This document shows positions 26,319-38,280 of a DNA stretch of 64,000 bases, in pieces. How positions within the stretch are numbered: the stretch's first letter is position 1; each line of letters begins with the position of its first letter. This DNA is from Saccharibacillus kuerlensis DSM 22868 (GTDB lineage Bacteria > Bacillota > Bacilli > Paenibacillales > Paenibacillaceae), in assembly GCF_000378145.1 (NCBI RefSeq), contig NZ_KB899278.1, positions 62,001-126,000 on the forward strand, read 5' to 3'. The position numbers and the translations under genes were made by a program. The notes below the pieces were generated by a model that did not search any database, was not told the DNA's origin, and was given only the letters and a program-made list of their open reading frames with translations.

Positions 26319-26340
26319 AATTTGCTTTGTTTTTTACGCG

Positions 26341-26611
26341 GTGAAGAGGCTTTTTCCTATACGGCAAGAGCCTTGCTAGTTGAAGGTCCCGTTCGATGGA
26401 AAAGCCTTGATCGCGGCGGGGAACGTTCTTTTCGGTCGCGTGTTGCATTCGGGAAGCCTGAATCGGATGAAGAGGAAGCTTCCCGAATGCAAAGGCGAAC
26501 GCCTGGGCTCCTACACTGAACGTTCCCCTCTGCCTGAGGCAGCTTACATATAAATCGGAACGCTTCCTACATAGAAGCGAGGCTCTTCCTTCAAATAGGA
26601 AAAAGCTTCAC
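26341..26611. repeat. Large nested palindromic region enclosing element copy 1
   Basis: The ends GTGAAGaggCTTTTTCCTAT (26341-26360) and ATAGGAAAAAGCTTCAC (26595-26611) pair over 17 bp with a 3-nt bulge. Between them are GCAAG/CTTGC (26364-26376), the 111-nt element, CTGCC/GGCAG (26530-26542) and CGCTTC/GAAGCG (26561-26579). No open frame fits here. Confidence 0.7.
26418..26528 (+). repeat. Structured 111-nt element, copy 1
   Basis: Outer stem GGGGAACGTTC/GAACGTTCCCC (26418-26428, 26518-26528); 5' internal loop TTTTCGGTCGCGTG (14 nt); inner stem TTGCATTCGGGAAGC with its exact complement (26443-26457, 26478-26492); 20-nt apical loop; 3' internal loop of 25 nt starting AGGCGAAC and ending CACT. 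Copy 2 at 38088 has the same geometry and loops but different stems. The active strand is unknown; orientation is given by the shared sequence. Confidence 0.85.
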
Positions 26612-26660
26612 TTCGCCTAGCGAATAAACAGCGCGGGGAAAGGACTGAGGAAGGATATAA

Positions 26661-37015: not shown

Positions 37016-37258
37016 GTTCGGGCGTCATCCTCTCTGTATAATCTGGATCTTGTAAGCCGGACAAACCCCTCTGTACAGCTTACAGGCCTTTTTGTAAAAG
37101 GCCGTTCTCATATATCTATACTCTCCCTACGCTGTCAAGTTGCGGTGCCTTTGTTGATTCGGAAATGAAAATCGGCCATAATAATGCGGAAGAAAAAACG
37201 CGGCGCAGCGAAGCACCCAAACGCCGATCTGCCGGCGATCGAAACGGAGGAAATATCG

Positions 37259-37987
37259 ATGAATCTGCAAATGATCGGAACAGGCAGCGCCTTTGCCAAA
37301 AAGTATTTTAACAACAATGCGCTCATTGAGCAGGATGGCTTCAAGCTGCTGATCGACTGCGGCATTACCGCGCCTATGGCGCTGTATCAGCTGGATATCG
37401 GTATGGAAGAGTTAGACGCAGTGCTTGTTACCCATATGCACGGAGATCATGTGGGCGGCCTGGAAGAATACGGCTTTCAAATGAAGTTTAAGCACGGGCG
37501 CCGTCCGGTACTGTACTTGGCTGATACGCTCGCCGCTCCGCTTTGGAACAATACGCTGTCAGGTGGCATGACGCAGGAAGGAATCGAAAAGCTTGAGGAC
37601 GCATTCGACGTACGAACACTGCACACAGGTGATGTACAGGAGATCGCACCAAATCTGTGTGTCGAACTGGTACATACCCAACATATTGAGGGCAAAAACA
37701 GTTATTCGCTGATTCTAAATCGCGACGTGTTCTACAGTGCCGACATGACATTCGATCGTGAGCTGCTGATGACCCTGGTCCGCGACCGCGGAGTTCGCCG
37801 CATCTTCCACGAAGTCCAGCTGGAAGGTCCAGGCGCTGTACATACGACACTGGATGAACTGCTGTCGCTTCCCGAAGACATACAGGAAATGACGCAGCTG
37901 ATGCACTATGCGGATAATCGGGATGAGTTCGAGGGACGCATAGGCAAAATGAAATTTTTGGAGCAGGGACTTGTCTATTCGATCTGA
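37259..37987 (+). CDS. MBL-fold metal-dependent hydrolase
   Basis: 242-residue metallo-beta-lactamase-fold protein related to RNase Z-like and YhfI/phosphodiesterase types. Metal ligands: [10 protein letters not shown] (HxHxDH), a later His in [19 protein letters not shown] (bridging Asp) and the C-terminal LMHYAD. The N-terminus [20 protein letters not shown] is typical. Substrate unknown; nucleic acid or cyclic nucleotide phosphodiester are both possible. Start at ATG 37259 with ACGGAGG 8 nt upstream; a 25-codon extension reads through untranslated sequence. Single gene. Confidence 0.87.
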
Positions 37988-38011: not shown

Positions 38012-38043
38012 GAAAAGGGCCCGGCCAGTAGGCCGGGCCTTCT
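38012..38043 (+). terminator. Terminator of the MBL hydrolase gene
   Basis: GGCCCGGCC and GGCCGGGCC around AGTA; the T-run is short (TTC). Confidence 0.75.
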
Positions 38044-38087
38044 GGCTGCTCTCGAAAGTTACGTAGGCGGGGAAGCGAGCCGGCTCC

Positions 38088-38198
38088 GAGAGAAATTCGT
38101 TTCGGTCGCGTGTTGAAATCGAGAAATAGATTTAAATTTTAGTGGAATTTTCTCGATTTCAAAGGCGAACACTATCGTTCCTTCACTGAATTTCTCTC
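38088..38198 (+). repeat. Structured 111-nt element, copy 2
   Basis: Outer stem GAGAGAAATTC/GAATTTCTCTC (38088-38098, 38188-38198); 5' internal loop GTTTCGGTCGCGTG (14 nt, one change from copy 1); inner stem TTGAAATCGAGAAA with its complement (38113-38126, 38149-38162); 22-nt apical loop; 25-nt 3' internal loop beginning AGGCGAAC and ending CACT. Beyond it, GAAGCGAG (38072-38079) pairs with CTCGCTTC (38207-38214) across 8-by-8 nt, and AAAGT with ACTTT. It sits between the terminators of two convergent genes. Confidence 0.85.
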
Positions 38199-38230
38199 TC
38201 CGCCTTCTCGCTTCTAGATACTTTAGACTG

Positions 38231-38280
38231 TCTCGCAAAAAGAAGGCCCGGCCAATTGGCCGTGCCTTCTTTTTGCGAGA
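38231..38280. terminator. Terminator of the CYP102 gene (bidirectional shape)
   Basis: A 50-nt hairpin: TCTCGCAAAAAGAAGG pairs with CCTTCTTTTTGCGAGA, with an inner CGGCC/GGCCG. 26 nt after the P450 stop on the minus strand. Confidence 0.88.

Follow-up and report, generated by a model that had tools for sequence, protein, structure and literature searches.

The BOX repeats of Streptococcus pneumoniae are modular, structured intergenic repeats. In the consulted part of their published account, the bcr1-bcr18 repeats of the Bacillus cereus group are short and intergenic, bcr1-3 being similar to miniature inverted-repeat transposable elements (MITEs), bcr10 and bcr18 having a conserved RNA structure, and about half of the repeats being transcribed (PMC3446304). 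Repetitive extragenic palindromic (REP) sequences are defined, in the section of the source consulted, as units of 20-40 bp with a GTAG or CGTC tag (PMC3733652), and two insertion sequences (ISs) of the IS1182 family, IS1272 and TnSha1, are described in the excerpts consulted as targeting stem-loops and terminators (PMC4923244, PMC5678879). It is customary to study mobile intergenic repeats separately from structured RNAs that covary; the family reported here looks like both. It was noticed as two segments, positions 26418-26528 and 38088-38198 (copies 1 and 2), of a 64,000-nt stretch of the Saccharibacillus kuerlensis DSM 22868 genome (contig NZ_KB899278.1), hereafter the window. Judged by genome comparison, each segment is the core of one copy in a dispersed family of non-coding elements of the Paenibacillaceae, which is apparently both mobile and under selection for its fold. 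With moderate confidence, we read the element as selfish, its folded strand being recognised by a putative protein.

A dispersed element family

A preliminary description reported the two segments as a two-copy element of 111 nt. On re-reading, this length, the geometry (11-bp outer stem, 14-nt 5' loop, 14-15-bp inner stem, 25-nt 3' loop) and the reported loops hold for both, as do four compensated inner pairs and the full matching of changes on the other arm; the changed outer pairs, first put at about six, come to five by eye. The copy number was an underestimate: the S. kuerlensis assembly holds 40 matches of the 16-letter 5' motif at up to two mismatches, compared with one for the reversed control. 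When all 40 sites were read, the 3' half was found to be kept in 34 copies and lost in six; four copies carry a ~42-nt insert in the inner stem, and others side hairpins. Such optional hairpin modules lie at the inner stem and on either side of the junction (L024, L026, L031, L035; L020, L029, L031, L032, L034, L043, L166, L167, L175), and similar modules turn up again in other genomes.

The proposed model search of related genomes confirmed the existence of further copies. Model R1, built from S. kuerlensis copies, matched 26 of 39 genomes, S. kuerlensis included, and missed genome G034, where a later scan found a match of 41.8 bits. The family occurs in the Paenibacillaceae and in some kin of the same order, at up to ~120 matches per genome, a figure from the R1 scan and its follow-up in which one copy can be counted twice, once per strand. 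Genomes of other families in the order gave 1 (G026), 8 (G028) and 1 (G031) R1 matches. Among the matches listed from a pattern scan of genome contigs (at least 119 stretches), 114 lay in Paenibacillaceae genera or metagenome-assembled genomes, one in Bacillus sp. FJAT-27264, and four were judged to be chance; these last, all outside the Paenibacillaceae (L255, L304, L306, L309), were rejected as true copies by eye. In a phylum-wide sample, scored at no more than nine candidates per genome, 5 of 299 genomes matched, all of them Paenibacillaceae. Most of 21 contigs from viral collections (L336-L354) seem, by eye, to have the element at one common position close to an end of a phage-like contig.

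As first suspected, this is not a recognised class: at gathering threshold the only Rfam match in the window is a tRNA, and permissive scans of copy 1, L070, L086 and L093 returned sub-threshold matches only. A published description of the family was not found in the literature searched, most subscription papers lying outside its reach.

The fold and its strand

Both segments fold better than 200 of 200 shuffles on either strand (z of -5.2 on the plus and -6.4 on the minus strand for copy 1; -4.2 and -5.3 for copy 2). Read from the alignments, the core is a conserved three-way junction, composed of an outer stem, short junction helices, a small hairpin and a long inner stem whose apex varies, and its stems drift through paired changes. 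The segments first taken for open loops are largely paired and lie within this junction, which we recognise as such because pairs inside them take part in the covariation: pair 112-119 is GC in 14 and AU in 11 of 25 aligned copies, and pair 42-121 is GC in 23 and AU in two. These 25 copies, out of 34 (two cut by contig ends and seven with modules were excluded), show two-sided changes in 20 of the 36 pairs of a hand-adjusted RNAalifold structure, with 95.3% of cells paired; their covariation score is 0.273 (0.122 in shuffles, slides ≤0.111).

Distant copies keep the junction letters while their stems are unrelated. Alignment A4 brings together 44 sequences, namely 42 whose 12 inner-stem letters differ at more than three places and the two window copies, of which copy 1 is close to L009, so that its members are mostly distinct. 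Here two-sided changes affect 24 of 29 pairs, 90.9% of cells pair, and the covariation score is 0.632, compared with 0.188 in shuffles, which take no account of relatedness, and ≤0.179 in slides; pair 57-64 is GC in 35 and AU in six of the 44. Pairs in the former loops were also counted by motif in 139 of 178 elements; this count, biased in that hairpin loop length was picked for most pairs and 39 elements were dropped, agrees with the alignment. The initial proposal of selection on a fold is upheld by the number of copies found in related genomes, strong two-sided covariation and the lack of an Rfam family, and the element is, to all appearance, under such selection.

The strand first described is probably not the constrained one, as mismatch types favour its reverse complement. 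With helices scored without preference for G.T over A.C, 286 elements gave 46 G.T and 149 A.C on the described strand, for which composition predicts a ratio of ~0.9 to 1. Among 317 distinct helix 9-mers, A.C was favoured in 76 and G.T in 29 (in an earlier count of 289 elements, A.C was favoured by 101 elements and G.T by 24), and the remaining mismatches on the described strand comprised 129 pyrimidine-pyrimidine and 14 purine-purine. Since A.C and pyrimidine-pyrimidine mismatches on the described strand are G.U and purine-purine on the opposite one, we take the latter, minus in the window, as folded. A4 agrees, with 18 G.U and 8 A.C on the opposite strand (12 sequences versus three, p 0.035); the tRNA control for wobble pairs comprised three genes only. 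Mutation bias seems unlikely to be behind the asymmetry, apical letters on the described strand being T 1643, A 1253, G 677 and C 619. The asymmetry fits RNA and single-stranded DNA alike.

Paired stem changes could also arise in a plain MITE through arm-to-arm correction (template switching) within a quasi-palindrome, without any selection on the folded strand. The entire element is indeed a quasi-palindrome, its pairs are nearly all Watson-Crick, and it is mobile in this genus. However, helices of two to four pairs within the conserved junction also covary (112-119; 57-64), the conserved junction letters are not complementary, and arm correction predicts no strand asymmetry. We consider this origin unlikely.

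Placement at gene ends

According to rough gene calls, two genes flank 198 of the copies, of which 66 are in convergent and 16 in divergent regions, 74 have both genes antisense and 42 both genes sense to the described strand; this count leaves out 92 copies overlapping a called open reading frame (ORF) and 13 others, a few copies may occur in both placement sets, and one set still held four chance loci. Among 256 copies outside S. kuerlensis, to which the same cautions apply, a terminator-like hairpin stands on the 3' side of the described strand in 33 and on the 5' side in nine (background: 23 of 1071 windows), and the 3'-side hairpins point each way, 19 and 19. As far as such counts go, the core sits at gene ends, often beside terminator hairpins. 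In G013, G014 and G021, copies are found in convergent pairs, plus then minus, several with a terminator-like hairpin between them (L165-L168, L170, L173-L175, L178). A promoter of the element's own was rejected on a scan of 291 flanks, strict sense orientation to genes on the mixed orientation of the placement counts, and no common neighbour gene family was seen in the rough gene calls.

Two further explanations bear on this placement. In the first, the folded strand would be a host-useful RNA acting in readthrough or 3' transcripts (stability, attenuation, protein sponge), which transposition only spread, as suggested for BOX, bcr and REP. It would account for the gene-end position with only 16 of 198 copies in divergent (promoter) regions, for the excess, on rough gene calls, of tandem genes in which the presumed folded strand is sense (74) over antisense (42), and for the recurrence, by eye, at one site in most of the 21 viral-collection contigs. 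On the other hand, it sits poorly with the want of a common neighbour gene family or of promoter enrichment, with the mixed orientation, and with presence or absence varying between species of the genus. We regard it as a tentative possibility, on the doubtful side.

In the second, the element would be a single-stranded DNA site. Folded DNA strands bound by a recombinase or a HUH enzyme occur at attC and at IS200/IS605 ends. The hairpin is one-sided (33 versus 9 of 256) for both directions of termination (19 and 19), which suggests a DNA structure, and G.T is the milder mismatch in DNA too. Yet no shared neighbour gene appeared, in an analysis without a search aimed at such enzymes, and the folded strand's G.A-type mismatches are just as compatible with RNA. 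This explanation strikes us as quite improbable.

Mobility within the genus

The preliminary description had contrasted a fold with a transposon, a distinction that empty sites, duplicated terminators and ends common to IS1182-type ISs do not support. The alignment of S. kuerlensis copies extends to the ends TCAGGCTGTCGAGAAAGTC and GACTTTCTCGACACGTTGA, so placed that the core lies between IS1182-type ends in a unit of ~200 bp. A direct repeat of the flanks with a score of at least 16 was found for 17 of 40 S. kuerlensis copies, with 356 mismatched flank pairs reaching at most 12; the repeat is a hairpin, mostly a terminator, and 12 of the 17 copies have it at a distance of 20-24 nt from the model on either side. 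Such a terminator duplication is present at window copy 2. Elsewhere it was found for the one tested copy each in G002, G003, G008, G009 and G011, for one of 12 in G013 and for three of eight in G028, two of these owing to the tandem pair in L095; the remaining tested genomes gave none. The L095 pair (1501-1823) consists of nearly identical copies 172 bp apart.

Empty sites, read by eye in the relatives printed out of more that matched, agree with this. The element was absent from the L016 site in all nine relatives (330 nt read) and from the L033 site in all three; at the L026 site, five of six relatives were empty and the sixth, G015, holds a copy that differs in its stems and has a duplicated terminator of its own. 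By these comparisons, copies in this genus are mobile.

The candidate mover is a transposase of ISs that we take to be IS1182-type from their DUF772 matches. Same-genus ISs of ~1.57 kb in G002, G003 and G006 have ends that match the S. kuerlensis consensus ends, are inserted at terminators, and, in three of the four cases examined, lie between hairpin repeats scoring 20-31, the fourth (G002) being without. The core fold was found in none of the four. In L388 (G006), at ~3051, an IS1182-type IS has inserted next to a structured core copy and has a hairpin repeat of its own. A search of the S. kuerlensis genome gave no PF13751 match. Within this genus the subfamily has ends in common with a transposase-bearing element and shares its target habit and duplication, so by most tests its outer layer is, on sequence grounds, a MITE of an IS1182-type IS.

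A core between the left-end hairpin of an IS1182-type IS and its gene was seen at six G023 loci and at L188 of G034 (41.8 bits), and one further weak R1 match lies beside an IS1182-type gene. As a regular part of such ISs the core is ruled out: the IS1182-type loci of G016, G019, G028 and G036 gave no R1 match, and four IS1182-type transposases found no match within the 8-kb stretch at any of 119 named loci (0/119), although these transposases belong to another branch than that of S. kuerlensis and the sequence of some loci ends a short way from the core. Outside the genus the core occurs without these ends, and across the whole family ends and transposase are not found together wherever copies abound. 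The inner layer is, as far as these loci indicate, a conserved fold not tied to the IS1182-type IS outside this genus.

Proposed model

In this genus the ~200-bp units insert at terminators, with duplication of the hairpin, and we suggest that a same-genus IS1182-type transposase may have moved them in trans. Least certainly, the core might persist as a folded single strand (RNA more probably than DNA) to which a protein could bind, and this binding might help the element spread or be tolerated.

Several observations weigh against this model. The two-sided pair count in A4 is 24 versus 21.5 in shuffles and was equalled by 15 of 500, a weak result in one of five measures, and 1208 of 1269 pairs are Watson-Crick (141 of 164 parsed elements, preselected by pairing). 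Typical RNAs have more wobble pairs than that. Promoters are not enriched: over 291 flanks, those directed into the folded strand number 33, those directed into the opposite strand 25, and those directed away 36 and 41. At threshold, flank duplication is missing from 23 of 40 S. kuerlensis copies, window copy 1 among them, and from all 28 tested G014 copies. The one DUF772 transposase gene of S. kuerlensis, whose left end is the same as the element's, is broken, and the same-genus ISs, with first open frames of only 195-196 aa, are therefore not called intact. DUF772 is also absent from eight genomes with at least 20 matches, yet present in G017, which has none; together with the 0/28 and the 0/119, these copy-rich genomes imply that this transposase is not the general mover, or was lost.

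In another view, the folded strand would be a new structured RNA class and itself the mobile unit, a parasite like a short interspersed nuclear element (SINE) or a ribozyme- or guide-like RNA spread through the Paenibacillaceae; it would land beside terminator hairpins by fold-dependent chemistry, with IS1182-type ends captured later in one genus. We think this rather unlikely. In this family the junction fold looks to be kept across many species while the stems are rewritten, at tens to ~120 matches per genome beside terminators, and the keeping of one shape while letters change points to some activity of the folded strand itself. With its many natural variants, empty sites and same-genus ISs, the family allows a direct test of whether a selfish repeat is under selection on its folded strand, and it would help to annotate Paenibacillus gene ends.

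The two window copies

Model R2, built from A4 and hence matching both window copies partly by construction, finds the copy 1 core (26418-26528, minus strand taken as folded) at 26553-26399 minus with 84.8 bits and the copy 2 core (38088-38198, likewise minus) at 38224-38069 minus with 106.8 bits; shuffle folds and alignment place the three-way junction in both. The copy 1 fold extends past these ends to 285 nt (26336-26620 minus, -120.1 kcal/mol, z -6.6), and a wider quasi-palindrome, assigned to neither strand, spans 26341-26611, its outermost arms (26341-26360 and 26595-26611) pairing by eye. The entire copy 2 unit of ~200 bp probably occupies 38044-38244, its ends being set by the flank-repeat test and by eye, between two copies of a terminator hairpin, also without strand: the left at 38018-38043 (score 17, control maximum 12; terminator-like site 38018-38039) and the right at 38245-38270 (terminator-like sites 38249-38262). 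The flank repeat stops 20 nt to the left and starts 23 nt to the right of the 158-nt model region. A close relative of the gene ahead of copy 2 (37184-37987) precedes a G014 copy (L170), and the flanks suggest separate insertions.

Comparison with known elements

Group IIC introns insert at terminators; no group II intron RNA match was found in the window, and this class was rejected. REP sequences with their REP-associated tyrosine transposases (RAYTs) resemble the family in being palindromic, intergenic and of high copy number, but at ~160-200 bp the element is not a tagged palindrome of 20-40 bp. BOX repeats are likened to it by description only, as are the bcr repeats, which belong to another lineage; the element here seems to combine mobility with a junction conserved across many species. 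With IS1272 and TnSha1, the element of this genus shares the ends of the IS1182 family and hairpin targets, but those ISs are reported to remove the stem-loop that they target, or to take its place, and not to duplicate it (PMC4923244, PMC5678879), whereas the hairpin is duplicated here, and the same-genus IS1182-type ISs have no counterpart of the core fold. The nearest analogues are the bcr repeats and IS1272-type targeting.
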